A program made the position numbers and the translations under genes. The notes below the pieces were generated by a model, which did not search any database, was not told the origin of the DNA, and saw nothing but the letters and a program-made list of their open reading frames with translations. 21,079 nt of DNA, from the IMG/VR virus record IMGVR_UViG_3300045930_000317, positions 1-21,079 of that record; one strand, given 5' to 3'. Of the stretch, positions 5,628 through 20,396 are shown in pieces (the stretch's first letter is position 1; every line of letters starts with the position of its first letter). Origin of the DNA: a virus.

Positions 5628-5918
5628 TTATTCGCGAAAGTCGGTGAAATCGGCGTGGATCACGCTGCCACTGGTGGCGGCCAGGGTGGCGGCGACCCAG
5701 CGGCGGGCCTCGTCGAGCTGCTTGGCGATCTGCTCGGGGTCCATTTCGATCTCGTTGCCGTCTCGGCCGCCCTGGGCGGATCGCGTGACGGGCACGGCCA
5801 GCAGCTTGCGGCAGGCGGTGACAAACGCTTTCGCCTCGGTCAGCGATTCGTTTTCCTCATAGCCTGCGTTGTCAAAGTAGGCGTCGCGGGCTGCGGAAAT
5901 CTCTGCGTCGAGGGCCAC
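5628..5918 (-). CDS. Small head-tail joining protein candidate (gpW-like position)
   Basis: The product is 96 residues, helical and acidic: M-A-L-D-A-E-I-S-A-A-R-D-A-Y near the start and P-E-Q-I-A-K-Q-L-D-E-A-R-R-W in the middle. It lies directly before the portal gene, where lambda has W (68 residues), a head-tail joining protein. Its stop is two bases from the portal TTG start. The start is GTG at 5918 with only a weak G-rich Shine-Dalgarno. The W-like role is inferred from position, size and helical character; no diagnostic motif is visible. Confidence 0.6.
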   Translation of the reverse strand: MALDAEISAARDAYFDNAGYEENESLTEAKAFVTACRKLLAVPVTRSAQGGRDGNEIEMDPEQIAKQLDEARRWVAATLAATSGSVIHADFTDFRE

Positions 5919-5956
5919 GCCACCATTTTGCGAGCAGAATGGGCAAGAACGGGCAC

Positions 5957-6001
5957 TAATCCGGCGCGTCCGGCGCCGGATGCGCCGGATGCGCCGGATT
6001 A
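5957..6001. repeat. REP-like GC-rich inverted repeat cluster
   Basis: An 11-bp perfect inverted repeat (5957-5967/5991-6001) encloses a further 12-bp palindrome (5969-5980), and the 9-mer ATGCGCCGG is repeated in tandem at 5980-5997. The whole stretch is made of four versions of TCCGGCGC or its complement. It fills the gap between the W-like gene and the gene ending at 6026. It could be a REP-type element, a weak terminator or an mRNA-stabilising hairpin. Confidence 0.6.
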
Positions 6002-6020
6002 ACTGGATGCTTCGTCCAGT
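6002..6020. repeat. ACTGGA-N7-TCCAGT hairpin, copy 1
   Basis: Arms 6002-6007 and 6015-6020 pair perfectly around a 7-nt spacer. On the minus strand the sequence reads CACTGGAC-N5-ATCCAG, a pattern shared with 20401-20418 and 20958-20977. It lies 5 nt past the stop of the gene ending at 6026 and abuts the REP-like cluster. Confidence 0.55.
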
Positions 6021-6025
6021 GCGCG

Positions 6026-6262
6026 CTAATCCTGGGCCAGGCCGTACCGCCGGCGGATCTCGTCGGCCATTGCATCAATGATCTGGCGGACGGATGTCAG
6101 GCAGTCCTCGCCGATCGCTGACTCCGCGGCCGCCGTGCGGGCCGTATAAAGCGCGTCGAGGGCCGCGGCGCCACCGGGCAGCTCGGCGCGGATCGCCGCG
6201 TTGATGAGCTGGCGCAGATTCTTAGACGCGCCGTATTTGGCGGCCAGGTCGGACTTGGGCAT
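6026..6262 (-). CDS. Small helical phage protein of unknown function
   Basis: From the ATG at 6262 this encodes 78 residues with an N-terminal M-P-K-S-D-L-A-A-K-Y-G-A-S-K-N-L-R-Q-L-I-N segment and a C-terminal amphipathic helix ending R-R-R-Y-G-L-A-Q-D. Longer upstream starts in this frame would overlap the end of the Mom-like gene and add a Pro/Arg-rich segment that looks non-coding, so the ATG at 6262 is preferred (33-nt gap). No Shine-Dalgarno is obvious. It lies between the Mom-like gene and the head genes, and no domain is recognised. Hairpins at 5957-6020 follow its stop. Confidence 0.6.
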   Translation of the reverse strand: MPKSDLAAKYGASKNLRQLINAAIRAELPGGAAALDALYTARTAAAESAIGEDCLTSVRQIIDAMADEIRRRYGLAQD

Positions 6263-6294
6263 AAAGAATACGGCCGCGCGGGCCGCCTCGTTTC

Positions 6295-7080
6295 TCAAAG
6301 GATAGTGTATTTGGGATAGGGCAGGGACGGGGGCAGCTCGAGGCGGGCCTGGCGGTCGAGGCCCCACGCATATTTATGGTTGCCGGCGTGTCGTAGCGGC
6401 CGGGTGATAATGGGCAGCCAGGCGGCTGCCCACTCCCGCAAATCACGTCCAGGCCGATCGGCGCCGTGGGCGATCAGCAGCTCGGCGGTGTAGCGCCAGC
6501 CCTTCGCGCCGGCCTGCAGCTTGGAAATAGCACGGGCAGATAGGACCGATCCGTCGGGCAGTAGCCGCAGGGTGCGGCGCGTCGCGCGGCCCAGGTAGAC
6601 GCCATTGTGGGCTTGGTAGATCGTCCCAATATGTCCGGGGAAAACTATGACTCCGGCGGCTGTCCGGCGCCGCACCGGATCGCTAAAGCTGACCACGCCG
6701 CGGGCGCCCTCGCGGTGGAGCAGCTCGAAGCACCTGGCCAAGAACCAGGTCTCGCCATTGCCGGGGACTGTGTCGAGCAGCACAAAGCGGCCCAGCTCGC
6801 GGGCGTCCAGGGCGGGCATGGGGAAGGTATTAGTCAGGACCAGGTCATTGCACGGGTGCGAAAATACGGCCACGCCGGCCAGGCGTCCGCGGGTATATAG
6901 GCCAAACCGATCGCGGGCAGCCGGGTAGGTGCCGCTGTAGTGGTGTTGCTCAACAAACCGCTTGGGCTCGGTGTCGTTATCGATCGGCGCGACCTCATAG
7001 CGTCGCGGGTCGATGACCTCGCCGGCGGGGCGGTAGCTGTCGCGACGGTCGCGCCAGCGCTGGTTACTCGTCGCGATCAT
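6295..7080 (-). CDS. Mom-like DNA-modification protein
   Basis: The 261-residue product resembles the phage Mu Mom family, GNAT-fold proteins that modify adenine in phage DNA to block host restriction. Seen in order: E-Q-H-H-Y-S-G-T-Y-P (44-53); G-L-Y-T-R-G-R-L-A-G-V-A-V-F (60-73); E-L-G-R-F-V-L-L-D (95-103); N-G-E-T-W-F-L-A-R (108-116); V-S-F-S-D-P (130-135); G-T-I-Y-Q-A-H-N-G-V-Y-L-G (152-164, like the Y-x-A-x-N-W-x-Y-x-G signature); and a terminal L-P-Y-P-K (253-257). The start at 7080 is an ATG with a small hairpin 7 nt upstream. Upstream in-frame codons run through the 49-bp repeat and are probably leader. Its neighbours are unknown accessory genes, and no Com-like zinc-finger gene lies next to it. 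Function is inferred from motifs. Confidence 0.75.
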   Translation of the reverse strand: MIATSNQRWRDRRDSYRPAGEVIDPRRYEVAPIDNDTEPKRFVEQHHYSGTYPAARDRFGLYTRGRLAGVAVFSHPCNDLVLTNTFPMPALDARELGRFVLLDTVPGNGETWFLARCFELLHREGARGVVSFSDPVRRRTAAGVIVFPGHIGTIYQAHNGVYLGRATRRTLRLLPDGSVLSARAISKLQAGAKGWRYTAELLIAHGADRPGRDLREWAAAWLPIITRPLRHAGNHKYAWGLDRQARLELPPSLPYPKYTIL

Positions 7081-7087
7081 CGAATTA

Positions 7088-7102
7088 CTGCCGCGGGGGC
7101 AG
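7088..7102 (-). promoter_or_regulatory. Start-proximal hairpin before the Mom-like gene
   Basis: On the minus strand CTGCC, a 5-nt loop and GGCAG form a 5-bp stem that ends 7 nt before the ATG at 7080. GAGG lies just before it. The same hairpin, with a 6-nt loop, precedes the gene starting at 7615. Its position suggests control of ribosome access. Confidence 0.5.
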
Positions 7103-7133
7103 CCTCGAAACGGGGAACAAACGGGCAACAAAT

Positions 7134-7182
7134 AGGCCGCGCGGCCGGGGACGATCCGGCCAGGTGCCAGCGCGCGGCGGGG
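7134..7182. repeat. 49-bp direct repeat, copy 1 (leader of the Mom-like gene)
   Basis: It is identical over 49 bases to 7685-7733, and each copy lies 50-70 bases upstream of an ATG. It contains GGCCGCGCGGCC (12-bp palindrome) and a GGCCGG/CCGGCC hairpin on the minus strand. It also covers the end of the gap after the gene ending at 7190. Confidence 0.85.
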
Positions 7183-7189
7183 CATCGTC

Positions 7190-7615
7190 TTAGGCCAGAT
7201 CGCGCGGATCCGGGCGACAAGTGGGCAGGAATTTGAAACCGTGCTCGCGACACCAACGGCGGAACCAAATGACCGCGCGGACGTCGCAAGCCAGAATGCT
7301 CAACTCATTGGCGGCGTTCCACCAATAGTCTGATACTCTGACCAGGCCTCGGGGCGTGTCGAAATACCAAACGGCGGATACTTTGCCGGCGCCGTCGATC
7401 AGGTCGTGACCCTCATAGTTGCGCCATTGATCCGACGGGGCGGCGCAGTGCGGATTGCCTAACCGCGCGGCGAATTGCTCGAGCGTGCATACCAGCGTGG
7501 CGCAACGGCCGCCCGCTCTGCGCTTCAATGGGACTCGGGGCAGGTCGTGGTGCCATTGCTTAGATCGCTCGGCGGTGGCCAGGGATACATGCCGGCTAGC
7601 TAGAATCGTCGTCAT
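7190..7615 (-). CDS. Unknown phage accessory protein (YWWN-type)
   Basis: The product is 141 residues, beginning M-T-T-I-L-A-S-R at an ATG (7615). It has a conserved-looking core W-Y-F-D-T-P-R-G-L-V-R-V-S-D-Y-W-W-N-A-A-N-E-L-S-I (about 83-107), then W-F-R-R-W-C and G-F-K-F near the C-terminus. Many aromatic residues and a few Cys are present, but no regular zinc motif. No signal peptide or membrane segment is visible. It is expressed with the Mom-like gene and shares the duplicated leader (49-bp repeat at 7685-7733 and hairpin at 7624-7639). I do not recognise a function; joint regulation with the Mom-like gene suggests a role in DNA modification or anti-restriction, but that is a guess. Confidence 0.7.
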   Translation of the reverse strand: MTTILASRHVSLATAERSKQWHHDLPRVPLKRRAGGRCATLVCTLEQFAARLGNPHCAAPSDQWRNYEGHDLIDGAGKVSAVWYFDTPRGLVRVSDYWWNAANELSILACDVRAVIWFRRWCREHGFKFLPTCRPDPRDLA

Positions 7616-7623
7616 TGGTCGTA

Positions 7624-7639
7624 CTGCCTCGAGGGGCAG
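7624..7639 (-). promoter_or_regulatory. Start-proximal hairpin before the gene at 7190-7615
   Basis: CTGCC and GGCAG arms (7635-7639/7624-7628) with a 6-nt loop lie 8 nt before the ATG at 7615. GAGG-CTGCCCC followed by GGCAGTA is shared with the leader of the Mom-like gene. Confidence 0.5.
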
Positions 7640-7684
7640 CCTCCTGGGAATGGGGTGACACTATCGGCCGCCGAAATGGCGGCC

Positions 7685-7733
7685 AGGCCGCGCGGCCGGG
7701 GACGATCCGGCCAGGTGCCAGCGCGCGGCGGGG
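7685..7733. repeat. 49-bp direct repeat, copy 2
   Basis: It is identical to 7134-7182 and starts immediately downstream of the stop of the gene ending at 7739. Together with the hairpin at 7624-7639 it forms the leader of the gene at 7190-7615. The exact identity over 49 bases in non-coding DNA implies recent duplication or strong constraint. Confidence 0.85.
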
Positions 7734-7738
7734 GACGA

Positions 7739-8164
7739 TCAGACCGCGGCCAGCGGAATATGGCCGGGTTGGATGCAATCGGTGGGCTGTTTATCCTGGG
7801 CGTCGCGAATGGCGCGGGCGGCGTATATCGCGCGCTCCCAGGCCTGCCCGTCTGGCGCGTGCATCCGCGGCATGCTGGCCAGGTCGCGCAGAAATCTATC
7901 GGCCCAAAATACGTCGAGGATCGGGCCGCGATTGGCCGGGCAATGCTCCTCGATAAATAACAATCCGCCGTGGCCTGAGCTGGCGCGGGCAATGCCAGCG
8001 CGGCAGCGGTAGCCGAATTCTCCGCGCTGAAATTCGGTCCAAGTGATTTCGTTTCGCGCGACGCAATAAAGCGCGATGCCGTGCAGCGTAACCTGCTGGC
8101 CTAGTCGGCGGATCTCGTCTTCGGCGGCGGCGCGGCTGGGGAAATTGTACTTTCGGCGTGTCAT
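7739..8164 (-). CDS. Unknown phage accessory protein
   Basis: The product is 141 residues from an ATG at 8164 with GGAG about 10 nt upstream. The N-terminus (M-T-R-R-K-Y-N-F-P-S-R-A-A-A-E-D-E-I-R-R-L-G) looks helical. The middle contains I-A-L-Y-C-V-A-R-N-E-I-T-W and the acidic I-L-D-V-F-W-A-D-R-F-L-R-D-L-A. No catalytic motif, signal peptide or membrane segment is evident. It precedes the YWWN-type gene in the same direction, and its stop is 5 nt from the 49-bp repeat. Function is not recognised. Confidence 0.65.
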   Translation of the reverse strand: MTRRKYNFPSRAAAEDEIRRLGQQVTLHGIALYCVARNEITWTEFQRGEFGYRCRAGIARASSGHGGLLFIEEHCPANRGPILDVFWADRFLRDLASMPRMHAPDGQAWERAIYAARAIRDAQDKQPTDCIQPGHIPLAAV

Positions 8165-8215
8165 GGTTTAAGGCTCCAAAAAATAAGGTTCAAACGGGAT
8201 CGAAACGGGGAAGGA

Positions 8216-8911
8216 TTAACGGGCGAAAGCGGCGGGGCTCGGTGCCTCGGTGCCGTCTTGGATTGCTGCCAGCTCGGCGGAGCAGGCGGCCAGGTATTTG
8301 CGCAGCCGATTGGCCAGGCCGCGCGTGGTGGTCAGGATCGGGAGCACGCAAAACGGATGGGCGGCGCCGTCGCGCCGATCGTCGAGGCGCTCGGCGGCGC
8401 CTGGCCGCCGAAATACGGCGGGCGGCAGCCAGCGGGCGTATGGGTGGGCCTGATACCAGGCCACAATGGCGCCGTCCGTGCGGTACTCAGCCGCGGACCA
8501 TTGGCGGAGCAGGGCCATTACTTCGGACGATTGGGCGGCCGATCGGGCCAGCTCCTCGCGGGCCTGGGCGGCAGCCTCGAGGCGGGCCGCGTCGGCCATT
8601 AAGCGGCGGACCAGCTCGGGCGATACGCTGGCGTAGTGCTCGATGCAAGTACTGCCGACAATGGCCGTCCGGCCGTCGCGCAGGTGGTGCAGCGTGAACA
8701 AATAGCGCAGCCCCTGGTGGCCGCAGCTACATTTTGTAACCCTTCCGCATGCGGCATAGTTTAGTGAATTGTTTGACCCTATTTCCAGGCCTATTTGACC
8801 AACTATTTCGCGTGCACAAGCGTACCCTACTGCCCCCCCCTTTGGGTCCTTCCAAGGGCATGGCCGCGGGGGGGCGTAGCCCCCATCGATCCACTTTTTT
8901 GTGCACAACAC
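8216..8911 (-). CDS. Zinc-finger-like phage protein with coiled coil; start uncertain
   Basis: The frame encodes up to 231 residues. A probable zinc-binding block lies at residues 55-92: Cys55, C-S-C-G-H (61-65), then G-S-T-C-I-E-H-Y (86-93). A helical Ala/Glu/Arg-rich stretch follows (about 100-140), then a Pro/Arg-rich C-terminus. Such a C-x-C-G-H...G-S-x-C-I-E-H block occurs in phage proteins of unknown role. The only listed start codon before the zinc block is a TTG at 8911, and residues 1-45 read through a hairpin-rich, G-run-containing stretch. An ATG at 8915 in another frame has GGA just upstream, and a frame change at the 8-C/G run (8833-8840) would join it to this protein. The true N-terminus is therefore open. 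Confidence 0.6.
   Translation of the reverse strand: MLCTKKWIDGGYAPPRPCPWKDPKGGAVGYACAREIVGQIGLEIGSNNSLNYAACGRVTKCSCGHQGLRYLFTLHHLRDGRTAIVGSTCIEHYASVSPELVRRLMADAARLEAAAQAREELARSAAQSSEVMALLRQWSAAEYRTDGAIVAWYQAHPYARWLPPAVFRRPGAAERLDDRRDGAAHPFCVLPILTTTRGLANRLRKYLAACSAELAAIQDGTEAPSPAAFAR
8833..8884. promoter_or_regulatory. GC-rich hairpin cluster near the 5' end of the zinc-finger gene
   Basis: A run of eight C (8833-8840) can pair with seven G (8868-8874). Alternatively GGGGGC (8870-8875) pairs with GCCCCC (8879-8884) around a 3-nt loop, so the G-run can choose between two partners. On the plus strand TTTTTT follows some 11 bases after the second hairpin. It may be a leader structure or a weak plus-strand terminator. 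Confidence 0.35.
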
Positions 8912-8952
8912 TCATTTTTCCAAGTAAGAAAGTATGCCCGCCGGCCGGCTGG

Positions 8953-8980
8953 TTGACCCAATCTGCTTGAAAAGTAGAAT
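8953..8980 (+). promoter_or_regulatory. Sigma-70-type promoter for the plus-strand cassette
   Basis: TTGACC (8953-8958), a 16-bp spacer and TAGAAT (8975-8980) match the -35 and -10 consensus with one mismatch each. The predicted start point (about 8986-8989) coincides with the first arm of the 13-bp inverted repeat, which contains ACTAGCAA, half of the dispersed palindrome. A regulator bound there would block this promoter. Confidence 0.6.
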
Positions 8981-8988
8981 GCTCCGCG

Positions 8989-9082
8989 CGACTAGCAATC
9001 GTCTCGATCACTTGGCCACTGGGTATGCCCTCGGCGCGGTGCTATCTCTCGATTGCTAGTCGGAACTAGCCCGCGCCGAGGG
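8989..9082 (+). promoter_or_regulatory. Structured leader with two interleaved perfect inverted repeats
   Basis: Repeat 1 pairs 8989-9001 with 9050-9062 (13 bp). Repeat 2 pairs 9028-9039 with 9071-9082 (12 bp). The pairs cross, so the RNA could form an H-type pseudoknot (loops of 26, 10 and 8 nt) or switch between two exclusive stems. The 3' arm of repeat 2 includes GAGGG, the likely Shine-Dalgarno of the gene at 9093. A degenerate copy of the dispersed palindrome (TTGCTAGT-CGGA-ACTAGC, 9053-9070) lies inside. Confidence 0.65.
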
Positions 9083-9092
9083 AATCTGGCTG

Positions 9093-9545
9093 ATGACGCA
9101 GCGCAACGATGAAACGCGCGGTGAATACTTAGAAAGAATTCGGCGCGAGTACCACCGCCCAGAGCTGACGATCGGTGAGTTGGAACAGAGAAAGGAAAAC
9201 GAGCGAAAGCGCAATCGTCTGTATTACCACAACAACCGGGGCCGCATCCGAGCGGCCGCTCGATCGCCGGCTGGCCGCAAGAAAAATCGGCAACATCAAC
9301 ATGCATGGCGGGCGAAAAATCCTGAACGGGAACGCGCGATCAATAGGAAATCGGCGGCTGTATATCGACTTCGGCATCCCCAAAAGGTGCGCGAAAGTAA
9401 GCGGCGTGCGAGTCGGTTGCGTTACCAACGCAAGAGGTTTGACCAGTTGGAACTCGAATTAACTATTGCAGAAGCACAACTGGCGGGCCGGGCGGCTGCT
9501 GGCGTGCTAAAAACTCCCGCCCGTGACAAACGGAGTGACCCATGA
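9093..9545 (+). CDS. Highly basic nucleic-acid-binding-like protein
   Basis: The product is 150 residues and very rich in Arg and Lys. It contains a loosely repeated ~20-residue helical motif, R-N-R-L-Y-Y-H-N-N-R-G-R-I-R, W-R-A-K-N-P-E-R-E-R-A-I-N-R and Y-R-L-R-H-P-Q-K-V-R-E-S-K-R. Such N-P-E-K/R repeats occur before HNH nuclease domains in many phage proteins, but no HNH domain follows here; a short Leu/Glu helix (L-E-L-E-L-T-I-A-E-A-Q-L) does. It is the first gene of the plus-strand cassette, with GAGGG about 10 nt before the ATG inside a possible stem. Its stop overlaps the next start (ATGA). DNA or RNA binding is inferred from charge; function is unknown. Confidence 0.7.
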   Translation: MTQRNDETRGEYLERIRREYHRPELTIGELEQRKENERKRNRLYYHNNRGRIRAAARSPAGRKKNRQHQHAWRAKNPERERAINRKSAAVYRLRHPQKVRESKRRASRLRYQRKRFDQLELELTIAEAQLAGRAAAGVLKTPARDKRSDP

Positions 9546-13494: not shown

Positions 13495-13515
13495 TTTGCT
13501 AGTTCGACTAGCAAA
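13495..13515. repeat. Dispersed palindrome, copy B, upstream of the terminase operon
   Basis: TTTGCTAGT (13495-13503), spacer TCG, ACTAGCAAA (13507-13515): 9-bp perfect arms. It fills most of the gap between the gene ending at 13518 and the small terminase start, where an operator or roadblock site for the packaging genes could act. Confidence 0.7.
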
Positions 13516-19575: not shown

Positions 19576-19791
19576 ATGCTAGTGCTGTCCCGCAAGCGGA
19601 ATGAATCGATCGTGATCGCCGACAACATCGTGGTCACCGTGGTGGAAGTCCACGGCGACAAGGTGCGGCTGGGAATTGAGGCGCCGATCGAAGTGCCCGT
19701 GCACCGGCGCGAGGTTTATGAGGCGATCCAGCGGGACCGGGCCCGCGAGGCGGCGGCAGCGAGCGAGCAGGCCGATGGATCGGCAAACTGA
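19576..19791 (+). CDS. csrA: CsrA/RsmA-type translational regulator
   Basis: The product is 71 residues and matches CsrA along its length: M-L-V-L-S-R-K-R-N-E-S-I-V-I at the N-terminus, K-V-R-L-G-I-E-A-P in the middle and V-P-V-H-R-R-E-V-Y (RNA-contact Leu4 and Arg44 both present). CsrA dimers bind GGA motifs in mRNA leaders, usually over the Shine-Dalgarno, and repress translation. Its own AAGGAG lies 7 nt before the ATG, so autoregulation is possible. It overlaps the sigma-factor gene by 17 bases, which links the two in translation. In a phage it may reprogram host mRNAs or time phage expression. Confidence 0.95.
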   Translation: MLVLSRKRNESIVIADNIVVTVVEVHGDKVRLGIEAPIEVPVHRREVYEAIQRDRAREAAAASEQADGSAN

Positions 19792-20383
19792 GTATGAGCT
19801 GATCGACCAGGCCCAGGCTGGAAACGAGCAGGCCAAGCTGGCGCTGATCGACCAGCACACGCGAGCCCTGTGGAAAATGGCCCGCAGCACCAGGGCCCGC
19901 GGCGAAACGCTCGAGGATTTATATCAGTGGGCCGTGCTGTTCTTTTTGGAAGCCGTCCAAAAGTTCAAGGCGGTTTTTAATGTGCGGCTGTCCACGTTTA
20001 GCTATCAGCACGTGCGGCAGCGGGTGTATGGCGTGGCCTGGCGTAGCGGCGTCATTCACCTGCCCAACCAGGCCAAAAAAACTGATGCCGGTAAATGCGA
20101 TCTGGCCATGCGGCTCTCGGGAATTACGGACGGGAATTTCAAGTTTGTCGAGCGGCACCTGTCATGCCCGCCGCCCGTGGCCCTGGAAGACGGCGAGGAG
20201 CGGGCGCTGTTCTATGCCGCGCTCGCGCGGCTGCCGAACAGGCTTCGCCACGTGCTCGAGCTGCGGCTCTCGGGGCTGACGCTGGGGGCCGTCGGCGATG
20301 AGCTGGGAGTGAGCAAGGAGCGCGTCCGCCAGATCGAAAATGAGGGGATCCAGCGGCTGCGGCTGATTTTGGGCGTTTGCTAG
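19775..20383 (+). CDS. Sigma-70 family factor (FliA/SigB-like), phage-encoded
   Basis: The product is 202 residues. Region 2 lies at about 17-90: D-L-Y-Q-W-A-V-L-F-F-L-E-A-V (48-61) and R-L-S-T-F-S-Y-Q-H-V-R-Q-R-V-Y (71-85), the core-binding and -10-recognition segments. Region 4 lies at about 145-199: L-P-N-R-L-R-H-V-L-E-L-R (153-164) and an HTH L-G-A-V-G-D-E-L-G-V-S-K-E-R-V-R-Q-I-E-N (170-189) for -35 recognition. Region 1.1 is absent and region 3 reduced. I choose the ATG at 19775 because upstream codons overlap csrA and are Arg-rich. The stop lies inside the palindrome at 20376. It may direct the late promoters of this phage. Confidence 0.9.
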   Translation: MDRQTEYELIDQAQAGNEQAKLALIDQHTRALWKMARSTRARGETLEDLYQWAVLFFLEAVQKFKAVFNVRLSTFSYQHVRQRVYGVAWRSGVIHLPNQAKKTDAGKCDLAMRLSGITDGNFKFVERHLSCPPPVALEDGEERALFYAALARLPNRLRHVLELRLSGLTLGAVGDELGVSKERVRQIENEGIQRLRLILGVC

Positions 20384-20396
20384 TCGGACTAGCAAA
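20376..20396. repeat. Dispersed palindrome, copy C, at the end of the sigma gene
   Basis: TTTGCTAGT (20376-20384), spacer CGG, ACTAGCAAA (20388-20396). It contains the sigma-factor stop codon and lies between convergent genes, 4 bases from the ACTGGA hairpin. Its core is identical to copy A. Confidence 0.7.

Follow-up and report, generated by a model that had tools for sequence, protein, structure and literature searches.

The stretch of DNA analysed here, referred to as the window, is an entire IMG/VR record of 21,079 bases, for which no completeness is stated and which is incomplete. It contains a terminase gene (Pfam PF05876 and PF20454), together with putative portal, S49-type protease and capsid genes whose names were assigned by reading the sequence rather than by family search; the portal, protease, capsid order is the same in relatives. 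A phage CsrA-family gene (19576-19791, plus strand; PF02599, E = 2.3e-25), whose product might give the phage an RNA-level regulator of its own, is directly followed by a sigma factor gene (19775-20383, plus strand). Near the record edge, a 91-nt direct repeat (410-500 versus 536-626, 76% identical) lies within a reading frame. Judging from one protein, the portal, the host phylum is probably Planctomycetota. Its two best relatives in genomes (E = 4.6e-118 and 5.4e-113) belong to one family, in a phylum shared with the Planctomycetes genome Pla86 (L169, identical to G010). Portal searches matched 25 of 294 genomes of the probable host phylum (E up to 0.001) and 27 of 150 genomes in the family of genome G165, the majority of these matches being weak and partial, and none of the 57 stretches found in the genome_contigs collection was confirmed. 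The 16S end carries the anti-Shine-Dalgarno sequence CACCTCC in three of five genomes of the probable host phylum, with no pattern match in the other two.

The interval between terL and portal runs on the minus strand through g8216, g7739, g7190, a mom-like gene, g6026 and g5628 before reaching portal, and measures 5,130 nt (10755 to 5625). Across 47 loci with both genes, some of them near-duplicates, the corresponding gap ranges from 646 to 6429 nt and stays below 2.3 kb in 42. The gene at 6295-7080 (minus strand, ATG at 7080) had been called Mom-like from the letters alone, and rightly so: it matches PF25680 (E = 6.3e-21) and phrog_1384 (E = 3e-21), families of a mom-like DNA-modification gene, and has relatives with 55-71% identity at 17 viral loci of the viral_contigs collection. 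Both g7190 (7190-7615, minus strand, ATG at 7615) and g7739 (7739-8164, minus strand) encode 141 aa and have no Pfam or PHROG relative; none was found in viral_contigs for either gene, nor in the phage collection for g7190. As previously held, mom and g7190 are unrelated (BLASTP E = 5.1). The short g6026 (6026-6262, minus strand, 78 aa) has a homologue in the viral contig L029, the closest relative to share this interval (portal 75%, mom 71% and g6026 67% identical). When 81 terminase/portal loci were scanned, mom or g6026 occurred between terL and portal only in L029. The remaining gene g8216 (8216-8911, minus strand) encodes a Cys-rich CGRVTKCSCGHQG...GSTC stretch resembling a zinc-binding motif and has no Pfam family above the cut-off.

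The sequence-only reading had described a duplicated leader before g7190 and mom, composed of an exact 49-bp repeat and a CTGCC-loop-GGCAG hairpin beside GAGG, 7-8 nt before each ATG. Both elements are real, but they are separable, as the hairpins before g6026 in the window and before its L029 homologue stand without the repeat. At mom, the start-associated hairpin (7088-7106, minus strand) consists of GAGG (7103-7106) and CTGCC-CCCGC-GGCAG (7088-7102), with 7 nt to the ATG at 7080. At g7190 (7624-7643, minus strand), GAGG (7640-7643, within AGGAGG) is followed by CTGCC-CCTCGA-GGCAG (7624-7639) and 8 nt to the ATG at 7615; this leader alone contains an extra 7-bp hairpin, GGCCGCC-ATTTC-GGCGGCC (7665-7683, minus strand). 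A third copy in the window, previously missed, precedes g6026 (6271-6289, minus strand; GAGG, CGGCC-CGCGC-GGCCG, 8 nt to the ATG at 6262). Two further copies, equally missed, are found in L029. One (L029:19-47) precedes a small ORF starting at L029:45 that has no match to window proteins by tblastn, and is 90% identical to the mom site over 29 nt; here the contig starts 18 nt before the element, so that this site does not bear on whether hairpin and repeat are separable. The other precedes the g6026 homologue (L029:1647), whereas the mom gene of L029 lacks the hairpin. This homologue could also start at another in-frame ATG, L029:1599, which has a normal AAGGAG at a distance of 8 nt upstream, so the hairpin may lie inside the coding region. 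Because the contigs L030 and L029 represent one virus (100% identity over 6,549 bases), the evidence comes from two viruses, not three, and the hairpin occurs three times in the 21,079 bases of the window, twice in the 8,629 bases of L029 and not in the 25,271-base L030 record, all of these records being incomplete.

Aligned, the five sites have in common GAGGC-N-GCCC...GGC-N'-G, followed by the AUG 7 or 8 nt on. All 25 pair cells of the alignment are standard pairs, compared to 8-72% when the partner is slid by 1-3 columns. Four of the five stem pairs are invariant, and the fifth carries a compensatory T-A to G-C change on both sides in the g6026 hairpin of the window. Covariation thus consists of one double change, which 104 of 500 shuffles equalled or exceeded in a test that is weak with so few sequences. 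A pattern of GAGG, a GC-rich 5-bp stem, a 3-8 nt loop and an ATG at 5-9 nt opening an ORF of 45 codons or more was found three times in the window, compared to a mean of 0.01 and a maximum of 1 in 200 shuffles. As the pattern was derived from two of the three window sites, only the third and those in L029 are independent finds.

Searches for further copies returned few candidates. When AGG was required together with a stem of 5 GC-rich base pairs, a short loop and a start codon, the two known sites, the one at 6262 and two in the relative (L002/L029) were recovered; the same scan lists scattered sites in other loci, mostly with GTG or TTG starts and other stems. Within the viral contigs, the strict hairpin pattern occurred in L029 only; a looser one added single sites in L115, L116 and L117, which were not counted as their ORFs have just 31, 42 and 31 codons. 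Another loose motif, which allows GTG and TTG starts, lies near possible starts in a few other relatives such as L037, L040, L063 and L084 (twin L087), where the sites differ from the five in spacing or in GAGG. A stricter scan of 1,184,418 bases of other loci gave three matches at two places (L019 and L010), and we rejected the L019 place, which has an ordinary AGGGG before its start. In genome_contigs, 53 contigs from many phyla had one match each with about 37 expected at equal base frequencies, which we read as chance. A covariance model, R1, scored 38.9-46.7 bits at the five sites, which form its own training set; no other site exceeded 14.9 bits in the 592,669 bases of 41 sources picked from the fetched loci. 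Its scan of the family of G165 (0 of 101 genomes) had no positive control and is hence uninformative.

Folded locally, the five hairpins reach -7.1 to -8.9 kcal/mol. Predicted hairpin probability was 0.84-1.0 for g7190 and the small L029 ORF in all six fold lengths, and 0.97-1.0 for mom in five of six (0.37 in the other). Both g6026 hairpins lose to other structures in folds of at least 100 nt (probability 0.00-0.02); the copy in the window reaches 0.80-0.89 only in pieces of 43-75 nt, and that of L029 never exceeds 0.25. The mom GAGG is predicted to pair with UUCGA before the AUG and to be only 11-20% unpaired across six fold lengths; if so, this pairing would hinder translation rather than help it.

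These observations can be read as two independent leader modules, a portable split ribosome-binding site and a 49-nt linker that was duplicated with the g7190 cassette, a reading that we regard as somewhat probable. GAGG would serve as the Shine-Dalgarno sequence, 21-24 nt from the AUG (mom 22, g7190 24, g6026 23, L029:45 22 and L029:1647 21 nt, counted from its end), and the 5-bp GC-rich hairpin behind it would take 14-16 nt out of this distance, leaving an effective spacing of 7-8 nt for the ribosome (7, 8, 8, 7 and 7 nt in the same order). In the alignment, the spacers between hairpin and AUG contain no Shine-Dalgarno-like sequence at any of the five sites, leaving GAGG as the nearest. The mechanism presupposes that the hairpin folds in the cell and that translation depends on it, both of which we infer. 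The phage lineage would have put this module before the unrelated small accessory genes g7190, mom and g6026 and, in L029, before a small unrelated ORF as well as the g6026 homologue. In a mechanical start list that includes wrong starts, genes other than those with the hairpin also have their best anti-Shine-Dalgarno pairing far upstream. An RNA-level role of the hairpin at translation initiation is supported by its sequence and position, and the element is more general than first noticed and plausibly a new use of a known device. Of the earlier suggestion that the Mom-like gene and its neighbour are controlled at the RNA level, the part that stands is this initiation role, with a hairpin between GAGG and AUG whose pairing is kept at all five sites; its parallel with Com and mom of phage Mu does not hold. 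Owing to the g6026 folds, the paired mom GAGG and the alternative start in L029, we place the split ribosome-binding site only slightly on the probable side and retain a regulated operator as an unlikely contender.

In such an operator, the hairpins would bind a regulator (the phage CsrA or a phage or host protein of another kind) that switches mom and its neighbours together; for mom, a lower stem (UCGAG with UUCGA) would sequester the Shine-Dalgarno sequence and keep it off by default. Since the mom Shine-Dalgarno sequence is predicted to be mostly paired, RNA-level regulation could indeed apply, and the local hairpin of mom folds more strongly than shuffled versions of it (z = -2.56). The invariance of four stem pairs exceeds what pairing requires, and a CsrA-family protein is encoded by the phage itself. 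CsrA operators follow the consensus ANGGA, overlapping the Shine-Dalgarno sequence. Yet this core is present in none of the six leaders tested, those of g6026 and the small L029 ORF lacking even GGA; the lower stem is missing in the alignment from the g7190 copy and the L029 g6026 copy, and the L029 mom gene has no such hairpin. The precedent of Mu, whose mom gene is under RNA-level control by Com through the motif CC(N)2-3GAG in a loop near the start (PMC6483171), lends some weight to an operator, but this motif is present in one of the six leaders, that of g7190, and absent from mom. No Com-like protein was named by Pfam among the 19 window proteins scanned, and no CxxC-x6-25-CxxC motif occurs in any stop-to-stop frame of at least 40 aa in this incomplete record. 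Combining both ideas, a transposable translation module could stand before newly acquired anti-host genes while the same hairpin is bound by a phage regulator, creating a common RNA-level regulon that includes mom; we consider this a speculation with little chance of being right.

The other module is the 49-nt repeat, whose copies (7685-7733 behind the g7739 stop codon and 7134-7182 behind that of g7190, both minus strand) are identical at 49 of 49 bases, as first noted. They begin 6-7 nt past the stop codons and flank g7190. Among the exact direct repeats of the window none is longer, and the next measures 20 nt; 200 dinucleotide shuffles gave a mean of 14.8 and a maximum of 18 nt. The unit is predicted to form a 13-bp stem interrupted by a 10-nt bulge (-25.7 kcal/mol). 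By eye, the g7190 leader (7685-7745, minus strand) starts with TGATCGTCCCCcGCCGCGCG and repeats GGATCGTCCCCgGCCGCGCG inside the 49-mer, an imperfect internal direct repeat. Searching the repeat in other genomes had been proposed at the outset, and in viral, phage and plasmid collections, which may omit records near the window, the unit was found nowhere else. Nine loci in viral_contigs contain an exact 19-nt core but agree with the full unit in register at just 26-32 of 49 letters, which we read as chance. At the 17 mom loci, the only 14-mers of the unit lay within the coding sequence of mom, in L003 and L013. The 111-nt mom leader gave a best E of 0.3 in the phage collection, the 49-mer a best E of 0.07 among the plasmid matches listed, and Rfam returned no match at E up to 1 over 6200-8300. 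The copies do not appear to be promoters, which was also suggested as a check: a sigma-70-type prediction called none there, and the one promoter-like site in 5900-9100 (0.8 expected) lies away from the 49-mer. An assembly artefact is possible, but the bases flanking the two copies differ on each side.

The mom leader is a mosaic, having 49 nt in common with that of g7190, the hairpin with other genes, and 13 nt with the g7739 leader, as TTCCCCGTTTCGA at 7105-7117, which runs into the GAGG of the hairpin, is matched exactly at 8200-8212 (both minus strand). Of 2975 random pairs of stretches from the window, 2 shared at least 13 nt. We read the interval as an accessory region in which cassettes, each bringing its own start module, are swapped, with the 49-nt copies as the latest joint. 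The unit would have been duplicated recently as the g7190 cassette entered, or was duplicated into, the terL-portal interval, leaving the orphan g7190 between direct repeats. Based on its position and on not being found elsewhere, we infer that the unit is a hairpin-forming intercistronic linker. A recombination scar, named at the outset as an outcome that would count against the regulatory idea, is now the likeliest reading of the 49-bp part, though not of the hairpin. Going one step further, repeat and hairpins might both be recombination linkers only, with a role in expression limited to carrying the ribosome-binding site. The exact copies enclosing one orphan gene, the mosaic leaders with their rare shared stretches, and an interval that varies among relatives would all fit. 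In five copies, however, the distance between hairpin and AUG varies by no more than 1 nt, and pairing is kept through a base change, neither of which simple homology would call for. We consider it improbable that repeat and hairpins are linkers only.

It is highly improbable that, instead of marking starts, the hairpins terminate transcription or stabilise mRNA 3' ends of the upstream genes: the hairpin at 6286-6270 was called terminator-like, 5900-9100 holds seven such sites with 2.4 expected, and the 49-nt unit folds stably just behind stop codons, but the hairpins at 7102 and 7639 have no T run and were not called, the distance to the next AUG is fixed while that to the previous stop varies (leaders of 32, 109 and 123 nt), and the fold of the 49-nt unit does not clearly surpass those of shuffled sequences (z = -0.95).

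Other intergenic hairpins were observed in these viruses. The perfect palindrome TTGCTAGTNNGACTAGCAA occurs at 2590-2608, 13496-13514 and 20377-20395, with a degenerate copy near 9053-9070, and has four sites in L029 and four in the L030 record (one being the same site); among its positions in either virus is one that immediately follows the stop codon of the protease gene, and none of 294 genomes of the probable host phylum matched it. A second family, CCCCCGCTGC...GCGGGGCCC, lies behind stop codons (L030:3392, 5236, 6583 and 9355; L174:1070 and 1542) or, inverted, before a start (L030:7224) in related virus sequences, with one match in the same 294 genomes.

Compared to known systems, the locus resembles Mu Com/mom in combining a mom gene with a foldable start region (PMC6483171). 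Unlike in Mu, no Com-like gene was found, the Com motif is confined to a leader other than that of mom, the AUG lies outside the conserved stem, and the hairpin is common to unrelated genes and absent from the L029 mom. Closer in arrangement are the start-associated sequences (SAS) of cluster K mycobacteriophages, which are 13-bp repeats (GGGATAGGAGCCC) with an internal Shine-Dalgarno sequence, present in 11-19 copies per genome a few (typically 3-7) nt before the start codons of non-structural genes of different families (PMC3203893, PMC12699233). At a subset of these, 17-bp imperfect inverted repeats (ESAS) lie upstream, for which the authors find little support for RNA pairing, and they leave the role of SAS open (PMC3203893, PMC12699233). 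Our element is likewise a short repeat with a Shine-Dalgarno core near the starts of unrelated genes, 7-8 nt from the AUG, with a second unit farther upstream at a subset of starts. It differs in that the consensus GGGATAGGAGCCC is not matched by eye (here GAGGCnGCCC...GGCnG), in having 2-3 rather than 11-19 copies, though in incomplete records, and in its Shine-Dalgarno sequence standing before the hairpin. The upstream unit is here an exact 49-mer with a bulged 13-bp stem and is found in just two leaders of one virus. By analogy, the hairpin element may work like SAS/ESAS, although we do not regard it as a member. Lambdoid phage boundary sequences are short conserved sequences at gene junctions that may serve cassette exchange; unlike these, the element described here is a structured one at gene starts, and its distance to the AUG is fixed.

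The closest mechanistic parallel is offered by phage T4 genes 38 and 25, where RNA structure shortens the spacing from 22 to 5 nt and from 27 to 11 nt, respectively, backed by mutation, reporters and probing (reviewed in PMC3014915). A structure between Shine-Dalgarno sequence and AUG would act likewise here, from 21-24 to 7-8 nt, as deduced from sequence only, and all five sites have a Shine-Dalgarno-like sequence more than about 20 nt from the AUG and none nearer, which is one of the features of a split site. Unlike the T4 sites, which are single gene-specific structures conserved by descent, one near-identical sequence stands before unrelated genes. No repeated split site in a phage was reported in the mostly open-access literature searched. 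Split ribosome-binding sites are known as one-off cases, and their repeated copying before unrelated genes would make them a reusable part. If true, this would explain how freshly acquired phage genes are expressed immediately, and would provide a testable case of start-associated repeats working via RNA structure.
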